A stretch of DNA of 30,668 nucleotides from a virus (IMGVR_UViG_3300020470_000133:1-30668); one strand, 5' to 3'; shown: positions 2,441 through 11,201, counted from the first letter of the stretch. Translations and numbers: made by a program. The notes: generated by a model from the sequence alone, not told the origin.

Positions 2441-2709
2441 ACTTCAATCATACCACCGTAATACTTCTTGGTAAAGGTGCTTACATTTGTTGGTTTACCA
2501 CCAACACCTTGAGCTTTACTTCTCTTTCTTGCAACAGCAGAACGCTTTTCTGATTCTGTCATTTGGGCTGCTTTTGCAGCAGGCACGCATTTGGGGTATG
2601 CTCTTTTTGATCCACTTGCAGATTTTCTTCCACATTCTTTGTAGCCTCCACCTTTTTTGGGAGAGCCAATGTCTACCCATTTTTCGTTAAACCATTTTTT
2701 AAGACTCAT
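2437..2709 (-). CDS. Small basic Cys-containing protein, DUF5872-like
   Basis: A 90-residue protein starting MSLKKWFNEKWVDIG, with a KECGRKSASGSKRAYPKCVP segment and a C-terminal KPTNVSTF. This arrangement matches what I recall of the DUF5872 family, found in phages, giant viruses and bacteria and of unknown function. The two Cys residues (26 and 41) and the Lys/Arg/Gly content suggest a small nucleic-acid- or metal-binding protein, but that is not demonstrated. It overlaps its neighbours by 4 nt and 1 nt in one run of basic proteins. Confidence 0.7.
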   Translation of the reverse strand: MSLKKWFNEKWVDIGSPKKGGGYKECGRKSASGSKRAYPKCVPAAKAAQMTESEKRSAVARKRSKAQGVGGKPTNVSTFTKKYYGGMIEV

Positions 2710-3197
2710 TAGAATACTCCTTTGAATCCCATACCTCTAATAGCAATTCCTCCACCTCTAGAGTAATTTTCTACTGTCGTAACTTTTTTACCGTAGTCTA
2801 CTAACATAGATTTAGATGGTTGAAACTTATCTCTAGATTGAGGATCTCTAATATATTTCTTTTTCTTTTTCTTTGGAAAATTATCTATAATTTTTTGTGA
2901 TTCTTCTTTTAGAACTTCAATAGCTAATCCCTCGTTTGCTTTTGTGACAGAGTCTAAGGCTTTAGCTTGTGCCTTATGAAGACCTGATGCTTTATGTAGA
3001 GCTTTAGCAACTTCTTTTACCTTAGCTTCTCCTCCAATTTTTTTACCTTTAGGTCCCCAATCTTTTCTTTTCATTCCTGATGGATCTTTGATTTTACCCG
3101 CACAAATTTTGCTAGCGTAGGCGTTCGCATATGCGCTGGGATATACCTTGAATTTTCTTTTAGCTGCAGCTTTGCCTCTTGCACATAATTTAGTCAT
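2709..3197 (-). CDS. Basic protein with N-terminal Cys/Ala module and C-terminal RGGG-AIRG tag
   Basis: A 162-residue protein. Residues 1-42 (LCARGKAAAKRKFKVYPSAY onward) form a compact basic module also seen in phage and giant-virus small proteins. The middle is an amphipathic helical region with a run of six Lys (residues 109-114). The last residues are SRGGGIAIRGMGFKGVF, the clearest copy of a C-terminal motif shared with the genes at 16373 and 19374. It shares 1 nt with the next gene. Function is unknown; a role inside the head or at the vertex would fit. Confidence 0.65.
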   Translation of the reverse strand: MTKLCARGKAAAKRKFKVYPSAYANAYASKICAGKIKDPSGMKRKDWGPKGKKIGGEAKVKEVAKALHKASGLHKAQAKALDSVTKANEGLAIEVLKEESQKIIDNFPKKKKKKYIRDPQSRDKFQPSKSMLVDYGKKVTTVENYSRGGGIAIRGMGFKGVF

Positions 3198-3218: not shown

Positions 3219-3359
3219 TTAAGCAGTAAAAGTCCTAGACAAAGGATTTTTCTTACGCTTAATAGCTATTTCTACTCTCTTCTTTTTTTTCTTCTCGTCT
3301 CTCGCACCACGAAGCTTGCCTTCTACTTGTTTAGATATTTGTGATCTACTTATTGCCAT
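3219..3359 (-). CDS. 46-residue basic peptide with a capsid-like MAISRSQ start
   Basis: An ATG at 3359 opens a 46-codon frame ending TAA at 3219: MAISRSQISKQVEGKLRGAR, then Asp/Glu/Lys-rich sequence ending SRTFTA. The first seven residues are identical to those of the major capsid protein at 12193. Its start overlaps the end of the oxygenase gene at 3346 by 14 nt, continuing the chain of overlaps. It is short, but the reading frame, the neighbouring gene spacing and the recurring N-terminus support it. Function unknown. Confidence 0.55.
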   Translation of the reverse strand: MAISRSQISKQVEGKLRGARDEKKKKKRVEIAIKRKKNPLSRTFTA

Positions 3360-3882
3360 TTTTTCCCCTTTCAAATGTTACAAATGCATTTAGGGTTAGT
3401 CTACCATTCGAAGTATTATTTCCAAAGTATCCATACCCTTTATGTTTATAATTAGACTTATAAGCTACAAATCTATTTTGAACATATTTTATATCATTTA
3501 TTACTTGTTTGTTATCATTATACAAATAAGTACCAGAATTTAAATTTGTCTCATTTAGGTATACTAAAACAGACATATCACATCCCATAGAATCTATATG
3601 TATCCATTCGTCCTTCTCATCTTCAGGAGTTCTTAAATGCAAATACAGAGAAGCTGAACAATTTTTTCCTTTAAAGTAATCTATCTCTTGTAAAAGATAC
3701 ATAAAAAAACTAGATAAACTTTTATTTGTTTTTGGTAAATTTTCACTTCTATATCCAGGCCAAGTTCCATAATCATTTGGAAATTTTTCATTATATTCTT
3801 TATTAGAATAAAGTTTTGTAGCTTGGAGTTCAGGCAATATAAAATCTAAACTTGGGAAAAATTTTTCTTTTTGTATTAACAT
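3346..3882 (-). CDS. 2OG-Fe(II) oxygenase-like protein (DUF6445-like), last gene of the halogenase cassette
   Basis: A 178-residue protein with the residues expected of a small non-haem iron dioxygenase: H95-x-D97 in EWIHIDS, a distal H147 in YKHKGYGYFGN, and R161 in GRLTLNAF as a candidate 2-oxoglutarate anchor. The YLNETNLNSGTYLY strand between them is also typical. The architecture recalls DUF6445, a family I remember beside tryptophan halogenases in bacterial TonB-receptor loci; that match is from memory. It overlaps the upstream halogenase gene by 7 nt (ATGTTAA). The likely reaction is hydroxylation or another oxidation; the substrate is unknown. Confidence 0.65.
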   Translation of the reverse strand: MLIQKEKFFPSLDFILPELQATKLYSNKEYNEKFPNDYGTWPGYRSENLPKTNKSLSSFFMYLLQEIDYFKGKNCSASLYLHLRTPEDEKDEWIHIDSMGCDMSVLVYLNETNLNSGTYLYNDNKQVINDIKYVQNRFVAYKSNYKHKGYGYFGNNTSNGRLTLNAFVTFERGKNGNK

Positions 3883-5024
3883 GCAAATGTTGTACCTTTA
3901 TATAAATTTTTGTCTAGTATATTCCATGCCTCTGGAGAAAAAGGCCATCTTGAAACATCTTCCTTTTCTTGTTTTATACTTTCAATAGTCTCCAACCATT
4001 TGTTATTTTTTAAATTTTGTGAACAAATATTTTTTGCATAATTCCAAAAATCTGAATCATAAATACTTCCACCTTGATATATGTAAGAAATAAAATTTAG
4101 ATACCTATCTGCGAGATCATGAATATGAAAGTTAACCTCAGTTTCACTAAATGATTTGTTAAAAATATAATCAAAAAAATATCTATTTAAGTTATCATAA
4201 AAACCACCTGATATTGCTTCAATTGGTTCGTAAAAAAGTGCTGAGTTTCCGTTTTTTAAAATTCTACCATCTATAAATTTATTAGCTTTAAAAGGTTTAA
4301 AAGTAAATTCTCTTATGTCTTCATAGTTAATATTTTTTTTAGTAATTATATTAAAGTTATCAATAGCTTCTTTTTTTGTTGTTATATTATCGTTATAAAG
4401 ATATCCCCATCCTTGTCTTTTTTGAAGTGGAATTCCAAACATCCATCCATTCTCATGTGCAATATGATAAGTAAAATTCCAATCTCCAGGTTTATCAACT
4501 CCATGTACGAGACAATGATTTATTGGTAAATCTACCATTGTGTAATTTGTGTAATCTTTTGGAAAACCTCTACAATCGATTACATAATCAAATTTATAAT
4601 TATTATTGATAATTACTTCTTCATCATTTTGTTTTATAGAGGTAATATCAATATTTAATTCACGAAATCTATTTTCATATTTATCATAAATTTTTTTATA
4701 TATTACTTCAGCTAATTTAAAATTATCAAAATGTATTGCATATTTTGGTGGAATAATTGGACTTACAAAATCGTGTTTTCTCCAATTTTTAAATTGGACT
4801 CCAGTTTTAAAAGTATATTGTAAATCTTGACCGTCAAACTCTACATTAAAATTAAGTGTTTCCCATAAAACTAAAGGCATATTTATTGTACTGCTCTCTC
4901 CTATACCTAAAATATTTTTTTGTGGATTATGAATGCAAGTTATTTTTGTATTATCTGCATATCCTAAAAAATGACAAACACTAAGAACCCCAACAGTCCC
5001 CGCGCCTATTATAGCAATGTTCAT
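3876..5024 (-). CDS. Flavin-dependent tryptophan-halogenase-like protein, short form
   Basis: A 382-residue flavoprotein of the tryptophan-halogenase superfamily, shorter than the usual 500-540. FAD-binding GxGxxG is residues 7-12 (GAGTVG), without the Trp that usually follows. GIGESS is at 40-45. K73 in YTFKTGVQFKNW aligns with the catalytic Lys of PrnA-type enzymes. The signature WxWxIP is W194-M-F-G-I-P199, with Phe for the second Trp. FYEPIEAISGG holds the conserved Glu (E269). Such enzymes use reduced FAD, O2 and halide to make HOCl or HOBr passed to the Lys. Activity is plausible but uncertain given the divergent motifs. Its ATG overlaps the peptidase stop (TAATG). The gene is markedly AT-rich. 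Confidence 0.75.
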   Translation of the reverse strand: MNIAIIGAGTVGVLSVCHFLGYADNTKITCIHNPQKNILGIGESSTINMPLVLWETLNFNVEFDGQDLQYTFKTGVQFKNWRKHDFVSPIIPPKYAIHFDNFKLAEVIYKKIYDKYENRFRELNIDITSIKQNDEEVIINNNYKFDYVIDCRGFPKDYTNYTMVDLPINHCLVHGVDKPGDWNFTYHIAHENGWMFGIPLQKRQGWGYLYNDNITTKKEAIDNFNIITKKNINYEDIREFTFKPFKANKFIDGRILKNGNSALFYEPIEAISGGFYDNLNRYFFDYIFNKSFSETEVNFHIHDLADRYLNFISYIYQGGSIYDSDFWNYAKNICSQNLKNNKWLETIESIKQEKEDVSRWPFSPEAWNILDKNLYKGTTFAC

Positions 5025-5500
5025 TAAATAATATCTTTTGCTTTACCTATGATTGGCTTATATTTTGTTTTACCTTCAGACTTATAAGCGTGTAAGTAAG
5101 ATGCACGTCTGCCTTCAGGTATCCAGCTGCAGTGAATCCATCCGCTATTAGGTTCACCTGGAGTGTAGAACTCGAGGATCAATTGATCTGGTTCAAGATT
5201 AGATTTAATCCAATCAAATAATTCAGCGTTGTCTGTGCCAATTACTTCAAAGTCTGCTGCCTCGGCCTTGGCGTGCTGCGAATTTACAGAGCTACCAATA
5301 GCTACACACAACTCACTACTACGAAATCCGCTAGTCACCTTGACTCTACCGAAGTGATCCCGAACAGGTTGCAAAATATTTTCACATAGTGCTTTTAATT
5401 TTTCTATTTGGTCTGCATTAGGATTGTTATCAATACCTTTACGTATTGCAGTATCTGATTTAATTAATTCTTGAAGGCTAAAATTACGACTTAAATTCAT
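5024..5500 (-). CDS. M15-family zinc D-Ala-D-Ala-type peptidase, probable endolysin
   Basis: A 158-residue single-domain Peptidase_M15_3-like enzyme. The zinc ligands are H76 and D83 (SQHAKAEAADFEV) and H123 (WIHCSW), preceded by VTSGFRSSELC at 55-65; E110 is a candidate catalytic residue. Family members cut peptidoglycan stem peptides and serve as phage lysins. There is no signal peptide, so export would need a holin. The gene is sandwiched between two halogenase genes, overlapping one by ATGA and the other by TAATG. Its base composition is visibly richer in G+C (sample lines about 42-52%) than the flanking genes (sample lines about 15-30%), suggesting that lysin and halogenases have different histories. 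Confidence 0.85.
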   Translation of the reverse strand: MNLSRNFSLQELIKSDTAIRKGIDNNPNADQIEKLKALCENILQPVRDHFGRVKVTSGFRSSELCVAIGSSVNSQHAKAEAADFEVIGTDNAELFDWIKSNLEPDQLILEFYTPGEPNSGWIHCSWIPEGRRASYLHAYKSEGKTKYKPIIGKAKDII

Positions 5501-7023
5501 AATAGTTTATAATACTCATTAGTTGTCATTGCTCTTTTAACACAATAATCTGAAAAATCATTTAAATATTTTAAATGTTCTTTAGATAAACTTTCTAAAT
5601 TATAATACTTTAACTCTTGTCTAGCAACCTCACTGTTAAAAATACCGTACCCATGACCAACTTGTATCCATAATGCATTACCTAAATCATGTTTTCTTCC
5701 TTTGTGATGATAGTCACATTCTCGTGGCATTCTTGATTTCCATATTTGCATTTTTCTATTAAACTCTTCTGTCCATTTATCTTTTGATGAAGCTTCTAAC
5801 CAAAAATCTTCTTTTCTTTTAGATTGGTAATGTAATAAAATAAAATCTCTTAAATCATCTATAAAACTATTAATTTGATTATTATAATCATCTATAAGAT
5901 AATTATTATTACAATCTAAATTAGAGGTAAAAAAATATCTAAAAAAATATTCAAGTTGTCTCGATGTTGTGTGTAATCCAGTAGCTTCTAATGGTTCTAC
6001 AAAGTGTGAGCATAAACCTATTGATAAAACATTTTTTACCCACATTTTATTAAGCCTTCCATTTTCAAAAGAAATTATTTTTTTAAATTCTACACCAATA
6101 TCTTTCATGACATCTTCATCACTACTTATATCAGAATTATAAACATAACCTCTTCCTATTCTTGTTTGCAATGGTACTTCAAATGTCCAACCATGTCTTC
6201 TTCCCGTCACAACTGTGTGATTTTTAATTGGTTCATTTGTCCTTAATTTTGGAAATAAACCAGCTCTGTTAGTAATCAAATTATCTTTAAAAGATACAAA
6301 TTCTACACCCATTTCTTTCATAATAGTTTTTGACCAACCAGAAACATCAAGAAAAAAATCTGCAAAAACTTCTTGCCCAGATTTTAATTTTAAACTTTTT
6401 ACAAAACCTTTTTCATCTTTGTTAATAGAAGTTATTGTATCTTCAATTCTATTCAATCTTTTACTTTGTAATAGCTTTTCTTTTAAATATTGTGCTGTAA
6501 GATAAGCATCTATGTGCAAACCTATATCATTGTTATTTATTAACCTATAACCATCTTCTCCAATTATTTCTTTATAAGGATTATTTTTTTCTCCAAATAT
6601 ATAATAGAGTTTATTTTCGTCCATCAAACGATTTTGAAGTAATGAATCAAATTTTTTATTTTCTGCTACATGTAAAATTCTTATATGATCATAATCTAAA
6701 GTAGGATATTTTTTTGTTTGTTCAAATGAACAACCAATAGGACTTAAAAAAGAATCATCATTTGTTACCCAATTTGTATGTTTTATTCCATATTTATAAG
6801 TGGCTCCTGTTTTTTTTAGAAAATCACTTACATCTCCTAAATTATAATGATCATTAAAAACGTCTGTAACTGCACCAGTTGTGCTTTCGCCAACTCCTAC
6901 AATTGGTATTTCTTTTGATTCAATTAATGTTATTTCAATATTTGGATTAGTTAGAAAATTTGCAAATGATGCAGCCATCCATCCAGCAGTGCCGCCCCCA
7001 ACTATAACAATTTTTTTTATCAT
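5497..7023 (-). CDS. Flavin-dependent tryptophan-halogenase-like protein, full length
   Basis: A 508-residue Trp_halogenase-family protein. The ATG at 7023 is preferred over an upstream in-frame TTG at 7032 because it gives an ATGA overlap with the preceding stop and starts MIKKIVIVGGGTAGW. The FAD GxGxxG region is residues 9-15 (GGGTAGW), followed by VGVGEST at 42-48. K77 (GATYKYGIKHTNW) is the expected catalytic Lys. The WxWxIP signature reads W279-T-F-E-V-P284, with Phe and Val substitutions. FVEPLEATG (341-349) carries the conserved Glu E346. Marine phage halogenases are known (VirX1 from a cyanophage iodinates many substrates). A flavin reductase partner is not seen in this window, so the host would have to supply it. 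Confidence 0.85.
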   Translation of the reverse strand: MIKKIVIVGGGTAGWMAASFANFLTNPNIEITLIESKEIPIVGVGESTTGAVTDVFNDHYNLGDVSDFLKKTGATYKYGIKHTNWVTNDDSFLSPIGCSFEQTKKYPTLDYDHIRILHVAENKKFDSLLQNRLMDENKLYYIFGEKNNPYKEIIGEDGYRLINNNDIGLHIDAYLTAQYLKEKLLQSKRLNRIEDTITSINKDEKGFVKSLKLKSGQEVFADFFLDVSGWSKTIMKEMGVEFVSFKDNLITNRAGLFPKLRTNEPIKNHTVVTGRRHGWTFEVPLQTRIGRGYVYNSDISSDEDVMKDIGVEFKKIISFENGRLNKMWVKNVLSIGLCSHFVEPLEATGLHTTSRQLEYFFRYFFTSNLDCNNNYLIDDYNNQINSFIDDLRDFILLHYQSKRKEDFWLEASSKDKWTEEFNRKMQIWKSRMPRECDYHHKGRKHDLGNALWIQVGHGYGIFNSEVARQELKYYNLESLSKEHLKYLNDFSDYCVKRAMTTNEYYKLL

Positions 7024-7619
7024 ATAGTGCAACTACTATCATCAGAGCCTAATATTCCTTTTGGCATGATATTAAATGCTAAAGATATCCTTGTAATATT
7101 AGAATTATTTTTCAAAACTCTGTGGTAAAGTTCTGATGGAAATAAAATTAACATATTATTTTTAGGTTCTATAGTCCATGAATTAGAATTAAATATATTA
7201 TATTCTTTTCTCTGCAAATCAAATCTTTTGTTATCCATGTTTAAAAATTCAATTTTTCCACAATTAAGTTCAGTTTGTAAATATAAAATACCACTAAAAA
7301 AACAATTATCATGATTATGAATTTCTGATTTTTGATTAGGTTTTGTTTTAGTTATCCATGAAGTTGATATTACAAATGAATTATTATAATGTAGTTTTTT
7401 TTGTAATAAGTTATTTATTTGTTTTTCAATTATATTATTTAAATCATTAAAAGGTTCTAACTGAAGAACATTATAAATAGTTGCTCTATCACTTGAAAAT
7501 TTATCTTCTCTTGGTGCACTTAGATTTAAATTATTTAACTTTTGAACGATAGTTTGAGAATCTATTTTAAGAGTTTGTATAAATAATGATTTAGAAAAAA
7601 GTGGAATTATTTCATCCAT
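7020..7619 (-). CDS. 2OG-Fe(II) oxygenase (2OG-FeII_Oxy_5-like), first gene of the cassette
   Basis: A 199-residue protein matching the small 2OG-Fe(II) oxygenase family common in marine phages. The iron-binding region is H101-N-H103-D104 in EIHNHDNCFFSGILYLQ. The distal His is H166 in LFPSELYHRV, and R177 in ITRISLAFN is the expected 2-oxoglutarate ligand. It would hydroxylate or otherwise oxidise an unknown substrate. It begins the chain of overlaps, and its stop overlaps the halogenase ATG as ATGA. The gene is among the most AT-rich in the window (one sample line about 15% G+C). Confidence 0.8.
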   Translation of the reverse strand: MDEIIPLFSKSLFIQTLKIDSQTIVQKLNNLNLSAPREDKFSSDRATIYNVLQLEPFNDLNNIIEKQINNLLQKKLHYNNSFVISTSWITKTKPNQKSEIHNHDNCFFSGILYLQTELNCGKIEFLNMDNKRFDLQRKEYNIFNSNSWTIEPKNNMLILFPSELYHRVLKNNSNITRISLAFNIMPKGILGSDDSSCTI

Positions 7620-7626
7620 AAAAAAA

Positions 7627-7782
7627 TTATATTTTTTGCATATTTGGATTATTTGATAAAATATTTTTTTCAGCTCTTGGTCTTGCTATAGAATCTTTAC
7701 TTCTTTTTCTTAAAACAGCAATAGAGCTTTCTTTCGCTTTTTTTTCTTTAATAGCTTTTAATAAATCAAATTTAAAATTCAT
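7627..7782 (-). CDS. 51-residue basic hypothetical protein
   Basis: An ATG at 7782 opens 51 codons to TAA at 7627: MNFKFDLLKAIKEKKAKESS, then a Lys/Arg-rich segment (LRKRSKDSIARPRAEKN) and the end NPNMQKI. It fits exactly between the genes at 7789 and 7619 with gaps of a few bases, which is the main argument for it. No domain is recognised; it looks like a short charged helix. Confidence 0.5.
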   Translation of the reverse strand: MNFKFDLLKAIKEKKAKESSIAVLRKRSKDSIARPRAEKNILSNNPNMQKI

Positions 7783-7788
7783 TACTTA

Positions 7789-8004
7789 TTATACTGTAGG
7801 TGGTTGTGGAGTGCAATAAAACTTTATGAACATGCCATATTTATTAACATCTGTGCTACCAAGCTCTTTCATTTTAACAATAGATTCTTCGTACCCAAAC
7901 ATTAAACAATCGTATTGTGTATTAAATGTTTTTGGCCATTTGTATGGTGGCATGCATTCACCAGCAACTTGTGAGCAAATAATTAAACTAAGAATAAATT
8001 TCAT
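7789..8004 (-). CDS. Small exported-looking Cys protein
   Basis: A 71-residue protein with a short hydrophobic N-terminus (MKFILSLIICSQVAGECMPP) that reads as a signal peptide, followed by a conserved-looking core with Cys and aromatic residues (FNTQYDCLMFGYEES, IKFYCTPQPP). Similar small exported proteins recur in marine phage late regions. Its ATG overlaps the stop of the gene at 8001 as ATGA. It belongs to a block of three small lysis- or envelope-type genes; a role in host envelope disruption is inferred from context. Confidence 0.6.
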   Translation of the reverse strand: MKFILSLIICSQVAGECMPPYKWPKTFNTQYDCLMFGYEESIVKMKELGSTDVNKYGMFIKFYCTPQPPTV

Positions 8005-8219
8005 TCCAAAATCAATTTTTTTATTGATTTTGATCCATCTATGTTTAACTCTAATTCAGCCATCGACTTTAGGCACTGATACTTTACTTTGCTATCTGGT
8101 TTTAACTGACGTTTTGCTACACGTGACCCCTTGAGACATTCAGACATTGAAGTTTGGATACGTGCCTCCTTGATCTCTCCATTGATTATCATAAGTAAAG
8201 CTATCACCATCTCTGTCAT
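8001..8219 (-). CDS. Small hypothetical protein with hydrophobic N-terminus
   Basis: A 72-residue protein starting MTEMVIALLMIINGEIKEAR. It has a short hydrophobic N-terminal stretch, then a basic segment with Cys28 (SECLKGSRVAKRQLKP) and Cys49. It is coupled by ATGA overlaps to both neighbours, between a membrane-anchored coiled-coil protein and a signal-peptide protein. No family was recognised. Confidence 0.55.
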   Translation of the reverse strand: MTEMVIALLMIINGEIKEARIQTSMSECLKGSRVAKRQLKPDSKVKYQCLKSMAELELNIDGSKSIKKLILE

Positions 8220-8593
8220 TCATGACTCCCATTTGCTCTAACTTTATCTTTCAGCTCTTCGATATCAGACAATGCTTGATCAAGCTGCTCTCTTAAAAAC
8301 TCGATATTTACTTTATTGGTCATGTTCATTTCTTGAGTCTCTTCCATTTTCTCAACGGACTTGTACAAATCCTCGATTAAAAAATGTTGCTCCTGATCTA
8401 TGGGGACTTGTTCACTTCGTTTTAACAAATCATTTTCAAACAACTCACGTGATGTCTCTAACGATACTAACCTCGCTGTCAGCTCCGTGTATGCGAACAC
8501 GCCCATTGCTACGAGCACGATCAGGCTAGCAACCGTCTTCATAGGCATTTGAACTCGTGCCTCTTCTCCGATGTTAAGTGGTTTGTTACTCAT
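8216..8593 (-). CDS. Membrane-anchored coiled-coil protein, possible inner-membrane spanin
   Basis: A 125-residue protein with a short cytoplasmic N-terminus, one transmembrane segment at about residues 19-36 (KTVASLIVLVAMGVFAYTE), and a long charged helical region to the end. This is the topology of an i-spanin. The exported Cys-containing proteins that follow it could be partners, but no lipobox is clear in them, so the spanin call is inference. ATGA overlaps couple it to the 30-residue gene upstream and the gene downstream. Confidence 0.6.
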   Translation of the reverse strand: MSNKPLNIGEEARVQMPMKTVASLIVLVAMGVFAYTELTARLVSLETSRELFENDLLKRSEQVPIDQEQHFLIEDLYKSVEKMEETQEMNMTNKVNIEFLREQLDQALSDIEELKDKVRANGSHE

Positions 8594-10661: not shown

Positions 10662-11201
10662 TTATTTGTAACTAAACCATCCAGTTATAAAATATTTATT
10701 TTCATTGCACGGAACTCCTCGATGCATATGAGTAAGACCAGCTGGCCAAATATAAAGATTTCCTGCTTTTGGATTTGTTTTAAATTTATGTTGTAAAAAC
10801 TCAGTTTCACCACCTTCATCTATGTCATTTAAATAAATCATCCATGCAAATACCCTCTTTAAATATTCTTTTGTTCCATCTTGCTCACAATGGATATGAT
10901 TGTAATATTTATTAGGTAGAAATCGGCAAAGTTGACAAAATGGATCTAGACTCCACATACATAATTTTTTGTCAAATAAAGGATATTCTTTTTTGAATTG
11001 ATTAACGGCTTCTTGTAAAGACAAGCCTAAATTACCAAAAGATTGACTTGATGTTAATTCAAGAGGTATTTCTAAATTATCTAGATCTTTTTCTCCCGCT
11101 TTACCTTTAGAAGCAAGATGTAAATTTTTCTCAAACCAATCTATAAGTTGATTACACGATTCTTTTGAGTATGCGTTTTCTTTTAAAAAAATAAAATTCA
11201 C
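10662..11201 (-). CDS. 2OG-Fe(II) oxygenase, prolyl-4-hydroxylase-like
   Basis: A 179-residue protein with the double-stranded beta-helix pattern of 2OG-FeII_Oxy_3/P4H-like enzymes: H102-I-H104-C-E106, then FAWMIYLNDIDEGGETEF, then AGNLYIWPAGLTHMHRG with H158 or H160 as distal ligand, and K169 or a nearby residue as the 2-oxoglutarate anchor. The iron motif is HxE rather than HxD if H104/E106 are used. It stands alone between the capsid terminator (11218-11251) and the structural gene leader. The substrate is unknown; hydroxylation of a virion or host protein is possible. Confidence 0.75.
   Translation of the reverse strand: MNFIFLKENAYSKESCNQLIDWFEKNLHLASKGKAGEKDLDNLEIPLELTSSQSFGNLGLSLQEAVNQFKKEYPLFDKKLCMWSLDPFCQLCRFLPNKYYNHIHCEQDGTKEYLKRVFAWMIYLNDIDEGGETEFLQHKFKTNPKAGNLYIWPAGLTHMHRGVPCNENKYFITGWFSYK

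Follow-up and report, generated by a model that had tools for sequence, protein, structure and literature searches.

The locus analyzed here raises the question of why a phage lysin gene should lie between two pairs of putative modifying enzymes, and whether the five genes work as one system. The window, a virus record of 30.7 kb, carries them on the minus strand and, as proposed in the original prediction, inside a structural/lysis block; terminase, portal, capsid, and small basic proteins are encoded on the same strand. The five genes are, in coding order:

7020–7619, minus strand: 2OG-like oxygenase (PF13759, E 1.7e-19; TIGR02466, 75.6 bits, cut-off 62.5)
5497–7023, minus strand: full-length halogenase-like protein, 508 aa (PF04820, E 3.2e-85, profile positions 1–448 of 458)
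5024–5500, minus strand: M15 peptidase, a core phage lysin (PF08291, E 1.9e-17, 63.8 bits, cut-off 23.2; phrog_894 endolysin)
3876–5024, minus strand: compact halogenase-like protein, 382 aa (PF04820, E 3.1e-27, profile positions 1–94 and 149–403)
3346–3882, minus strand: DUF6445 / 2OG-Fe(II) oxygenase-like protein with an HxD...H pattern (PF20043, 28.1 bits, cut-off 24)

Gene calls, family matches, and junctions all agree with the arrangement first described, the junctions reading ATGA, ATGA, TAATG, and ATGTTAA on the coding strand, exactly as claimed. For the full-length halogenase, ATG at 7023 is a likelier start than the listed TTG at 7032, since its relatives in contigs L121 and L122 begin there too. 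Scans for promoters and terminators within the cassette gave nothing better than shuffled sequences. The dN/dS ratio is 0.05 for the full-length halogenase (L121 vs. L122) and 0.15–0.17 for the short one. Both values are well below 1, and thus the cassette genes are under purifying selection.

Among the viral contigs examined, the full five-gene order is present in the window only, and a single occurrence could mean an assembly chimera. The original prediction proposed a search for the same order in marine viral contigs; the complete order was not recovered elsewhere, but each internal junction occurs in at least one other contig. The 2OG gene and the full-length halogenase are paired in the same slot in L121, L122, L210, and L211, and the full-length halogenase is followed by M15 in L121, L122, L211, and L212 (L122, L211, and L212 form one close lineage, and L121 and L210 represent two others). 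The junction of M15 with the compact halogenase is found in L006, and the pair of the compact halogenase and DUF6445 gene in a near relative, L005, where it is 98% identical and leads into the core genes seen in the window. Because every internal junction is thus observed in independent contigs of other metagenomes, including the 55.9 kb contig L211, a chimeric assembly is extremely unlikely.

The left pair, 2OG gene and full-length halogenase, recurs at 57–60% identity in a backbone that is otherwise closely related. Between the window and L122, the core protein p125 is 98% identical, whereas the full-length halogenase is 60% and the 2OG gene 48% identical, which points to cargo having been exchanged within a similar backbone. 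In L121, L122, L211, and L212, M15 is followed by a 2OG-type gene of another kind. Viral contigs scanned with the single sequences of the full-length halogenase and the 2OG gene gave no matches; profile queries did.

By nucleotide comparison, the window is a fragment of an HTVC023P-type phage of Pelagibacter (SAR11), with 87% DNA identity to HTVC023P over 55% of the queried stretch. SAR11 is the commonest bacterium of the ocean. HTVC023P-type phages (HTVC023P, HTVC027P, and uncultivated genomes) share with the window both the backbone and the M15 lysin, and the genes around the cassette can be followed from one genome to another:

8216–8593, minus strand: p125, core lysis-block gene and upstream anchor of the hotspot (phrog_20984, E 3e-56)
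8001–8219, minus strand: p72, small core lysis-block gene and upstream anchor, adjoining p125 in related contigs (phrog_24646, E 1e-33)
7789–8004, minus strand: p71, small protein with a signal-like N terminus (phrog_19893), present in L099 without the enzymes
7627–7782, minus strand: p51, small ORF, followed in L099 directly by M15 (left site empty)
3219–3359, minus strand: small basic ORF (MAISRSQISKQVEGKLRGAR...), end of the hotspot; a similar ORF of 50–60 aa follows M15 in empty sites
2709–3197, minus strand: p162, basic core protein and downstream anchor (phrog_27331), after M15 in empty contigs

In most related contigs, p125 precedes M15; a single N-terminal hydrophobic segment and a coiled-coil-like tail make this small protein spanin- or holin-like by look only. 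We considered p51 or p71 as a phage-encoded peptide substrate and rejected both, as both are present in L099 without the enzymes.

The M15 peptidase itself is 78–81% identical to those of other pelagiphages, and its His/Asp ligands H76, D83, and H123 are invariant in four pelagiphage homologs. In HTVC023P, M15 has the corresponding position and is preceded by unrelated genes, and in HTVC027P, the second cultured phage, it adjoins small genes only. A profile scan for M15 yielded 80 viral loci. The block p125–p72–M15–small basic ORF–p162 is empty in nine contigs with HTVC023P-type flanks (L063, L070, L072, L073, L076, L083, L086, L090, and L110). In other contigs the M15 site holds two 2OG genes (L039), one 2OG gene (L087), 2OG genes on both sides (L107/L108 and L112), a sulfotransferase (L054), a carbamoyltransferase (L099), or a methyltransferase (L102). 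Halogenases are found upstream of M15 in L066/L071; downstream of it, L068 has a 2OG gene, a carbamoyltransferase, a halogenase, and another 2OG gene, and L006 has two compact halogenases and one 2OG gene. The carbamoyltransferase genes (PF16861; L068:6543–8144 and L099:1375–2961) occupy the same slot, downstream of or near M15. GC content is 22–27% in the cargo, 38% in M15, and 30–42% in most core genes.

Thus, the p125–p72–M15–p162 block of HTVC023P-type pelagiphages is a swappable slot for modifying enzymes. The empty and variously filled blocks of related contigs identify the lysin locus as a cargo hotspot and not as a set of enzymes wired to the lysin, the connection initially suspected: M15 is a core gene in pelagiphages that have none of these enzymes, and among relatives the enzymes to its left and to its right change independently of each other. 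Since only 3 of the 80 M15 loci contain a halogenase, M15 can do without halogenases. A joint role with the lysin, in which lysis would be aided or timed by halogenating or hydroxylating either the envelope or the lysin itself, is highly improbable. Such a role would fit the translational overlap with M15 and the presence, in three or more further lineages, of the 2OG–halogenase pair immediately before M15, but most relatives have M15 without the enzymes, other cargo at this site is diverse, and the same enzymes are found far from any lysin in cyanophages, in Pelagibacter phage HTVC008M, and in tail-gene islands.

What, then, do the enzymes do? The presence of two halogenase-like proteins was confirmed by PF04820 matches, the FAD motif, and the catalytic Lys and Glu in both. 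In the full-length protein, the GxGxxG FAD motif is present as GGGTAGW at the N terminus, and K77 and E346, the equivalents of K79 and E346 of PrnA, are invariant in 19 viral relatives. Its predicted structure (pLDDT 87.9) aligns with PyrH, Thal, and RebH at a TM of ~0.84. The protein resembles known tryptophan halogenases, and its family and conserved residues suggest halogenating activity.

The compact protein is without PF04820 positions 94–149 (about 55) and the C-terminal part, and its model (pLDDT 87.6) matches flavin-dependent halogenases (FDHs) with VIA Z of 30–40 over ~370 residues. It keeps K73, present in all 11 compact sequences, and E269, the E346 equivalent. The catalytic Glu is absent in the compact relatives L020, L027, L029, S-SSM7, and bacterial L201–L203, so the compact subfamily may not all halogenate. 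The three bacterial relatives are lone genes in metagenome-assembled genomes (MAGs), one of Myxococcaceae, with Val or Ile in place of the Glu; none of their neighbors was informative. Separately, in L010, L016, and L018 at least six small 2OG-sized genes follow the compact halogenase, in a stretch bounded by tail-fiber genes and a tail gene; one of these was tested and gave a weak match.

Two sequence motifs weaken the halogenase assignment. The WxWxIP motif is WTFEVP in the full-length protein (second Trp and Ile replaced) and WMFGIP in the compact one, and Fx.Px.Sx.G, quoted for active FDHs (PMC8407142), is F-V-E-P-L-E-A-T-G in the former and F-Y-E-P-I-E-A-I-S in the latter, with Ala for the Ser in both. 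These changes are shared with other marine phage relatives, and WxWxIP is missing from some active FDHs (PMC8407142). An alternative explanation is that the flavoproteins are non-halogenating oxygenases with the FDH fold, which would hydroxylate or crosslink aromatic residues of a protein in the manner of the LodB/GoxB maturases acting on LodA/GoxA. WxWxIP is said to prevent monooxygenation (PMC8407142) and is changed in both proteins, as is the Ser, and the Glu is gone from several compact relatives. The full-length protein also matches the NCBIfam LodB (E 1e-7) and GoxB models weakly and far under the cut-off (31.4 bits against an equivalog cut-off of 400). Nevertheless, both window proteins keep the catalytic Lys and Glu, the solved structures nearest to them in fold are genuine tryptophan halogenases, and no partner resembling LodA/GoxA was seen in the window. 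We consider this alternative unlikely.

The oxygenases differ from each other in their iron-binding residues. The 7020–7619 protein was first taken for a canonical 2OG oxygenase, but in place of the HxD/E...H triad it has H-x-H...H, as do all PF13759-type relatives aligned. Hence we do not claim a canonical 2OG oxygenase, and the chemistry of this protein is less certain than its name. The H-x-H...H pattern of the marine phage PF13759/TIGR02466-type "2OG oxygenases" may mean a three-His iron site. The DUF6445 protein has the canonical HxD...H pattern, formed by WIHID and a later His. No solved structure was matched by sequence for the 2OG, DUF6445, or M15 protein. A role in defense was rejected; the only matches to defense-system models were weak CRISPR-associated "2OG" ones, all to a single gene.

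Outside the cassette, one more oxygenase is encoded in the window:

10662–11201, minus strand: third 2OG-Fe(II) oxygenase (PF13640), after the capsid gene, with the canonical HxD/E...H pattern

It is preceded by a strong terminator-like hairpin (11251–11222), and its relatives in L221 and L222 immediately precede a compact halogenase, whereas in L007 the distance is two genes. Another possible cargo gene, a methyltransferase (PF13578, 14997–15596), is located between the portal and capsid genes.

VirX1 of cyanophage Syn10 (PDB 6QGM; PMC8407142), the one phage halogenase that has been characterized, sets a precedent for FDH activity in phages. In syn9, which is near-identical to Syn10, gp42 matches VirX1 over its whole length and overlaps a second halogenase gene, gp41. 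Paired phage halogenases are therefore not new, contrary to the initial view: in addition to the syn9 tandem, adjacent pairs occur in 21 of 80 related viral loci from a profile search with the full-length halogenase, and a 2OG-type gene lies within 3 kb in 33 of these 80. The viral contigs L135, L137, L141, L165, L166, and L199 each contain at least three halogenase-like and several 2OG-type genes. The syn9 system and the window are alike in encoding PF04820 phage FDHs, with two halogenase genes per operon. However, the full-length protein of the window is only ~30% identical to the syn9 pair, its WxWxIP and Ser motifs, like those of its compact partner, are altered, and the window combines one full and one compact gene with a lysin between them, whereas gp41 and gp42 overlap directly.

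Other known systems share single features with the window. HTVC008M, which also infects Pelagibacter, has overlapping 2OG and halogenase genes set between those of its terminase subunits, but this phage is a myovirus with one halogenase of 30% identity at another insertion site. Compact "tryptophan halogenases" with 38–41% identity over most of the length are encoded by cyanophages S-SSM5, S-MS29, and S-SSM7; unlike the compact gene of the window, they adjoin gp33 or an endonuclease gene and not a lysin, with no DUF6445 partner noted. Cyanophage prnA genes of 1104–1167 bp, short forms included, have been tabulated (PMC3037559). A Mediterranean marine phage genome has two Fe(II) oxygenases and two tryptophan halogenases (PMC5628290), and the uncultured Mediterranean phage AP013490 counts among the closest known systems. 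Many 2OG oxygenases were described as cargo in 80 uncultivated HTVC023P-type genomes (PMC9599517), and the main text of that paper mentions no halogenase. The HTVC023P-type records of a phage collection, from which near relatives of the window may be missing, gave no match to the window halogenases, and the literature on bacterial clusters with SapC/TonB and tryptophan halogenase yielded nothing useful. New here are the compact subfamily of PF04820 halogenases, which lacks the substrate-side insert, the hotspot, and the occurrence of halogenases in the HTVC023P-type group.

The explanation that we favor, with a probability of about 0.6, is that the cassette is hotspot cargo: FAD halogenases and oxygenases inserted around M15, which would tailor an aromatic group, probably late. 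It draws on gene identity, predicted folds, conserved residues, selection, the hotspot, and modular exchange. Short runs of modifying-enzyme genes would be inserted before M15, after it, or on either flank at once and read with it through coupled translation, the left insert being the 2OG-like oxygenase with the full-length FAD halogenase, and the right one the compact FAD halogenase with the DUF6445 oxygenase. By analogy with homologs, a host reductase would supply reduced flavin (no flavin reductase was recognized among the window proteins scanned), which would react with O2 and halide in the FAD domain; hypohalous acid would then pass through a tunnel to the conserved Lys, and this Lys with the conserved Glu would halogenate an aromatic ring. 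The substrate side of the compact enzyme appears to be more open, and thus it may act on something larger, for example a protein or peptide side chain. The oxygenases would hydroxylate the same or neighboring targets. Of the late chemical tailoring originally suggested, tailoring stands as a general class of function; late expression is probable from the position in the structural/lysis block. Temporal classes are mosaic in the related HTVC027P (PMC12753301).

Another scenario is host-directed metabolism, in which the enzymes would halogenate tryptophan, indole, or another small metabolite of the host, and the lysin site would merely tolerate the insertion. The full-length enzyme has the classical architecture of a small-molecule FDH, cyanophage relatives sit among metabolic cargo (talC, petE, and hli), and unrelated enzymes also occupy the hotspot. 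On the other hand, no biosynthetic gene cluster lies nearby, the compact enzymes are without the substrate-side insert, and the same enzymes are found between tail genes in other phages. We consider this scenario somewhat unlikely.

For the preferred reading, late tailoring by hotspot cargo, the target may be a peptide, a virion protein, or the envelope, and no substrate gene is linked to the cassette. In L010, L016, L018, and L221, compact enzymes and 2OG runs lie between tail-fiber and tail-tube genes. Such positions would suit virion proteins as the target, or these sites may simply tolerate cargo. Quite tentatively, and with considerable doubt, we suggest that compact halogenases and small oxygenases could form a late phage system halogenating or hydroxylating aromatic residues of virion or envelope proteins, and that the abundant SAR11 phages could trade these enzymes through the lysin slot, varying their surface chemistry.

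In summary, a compact FDH that keeps both Lys and Glu is of practical interest as well, since it may take larger substrates. Near-identical phage backbones with and without the enzymes around a constant lysin provide a natural comparison for the role of phage halogenases.
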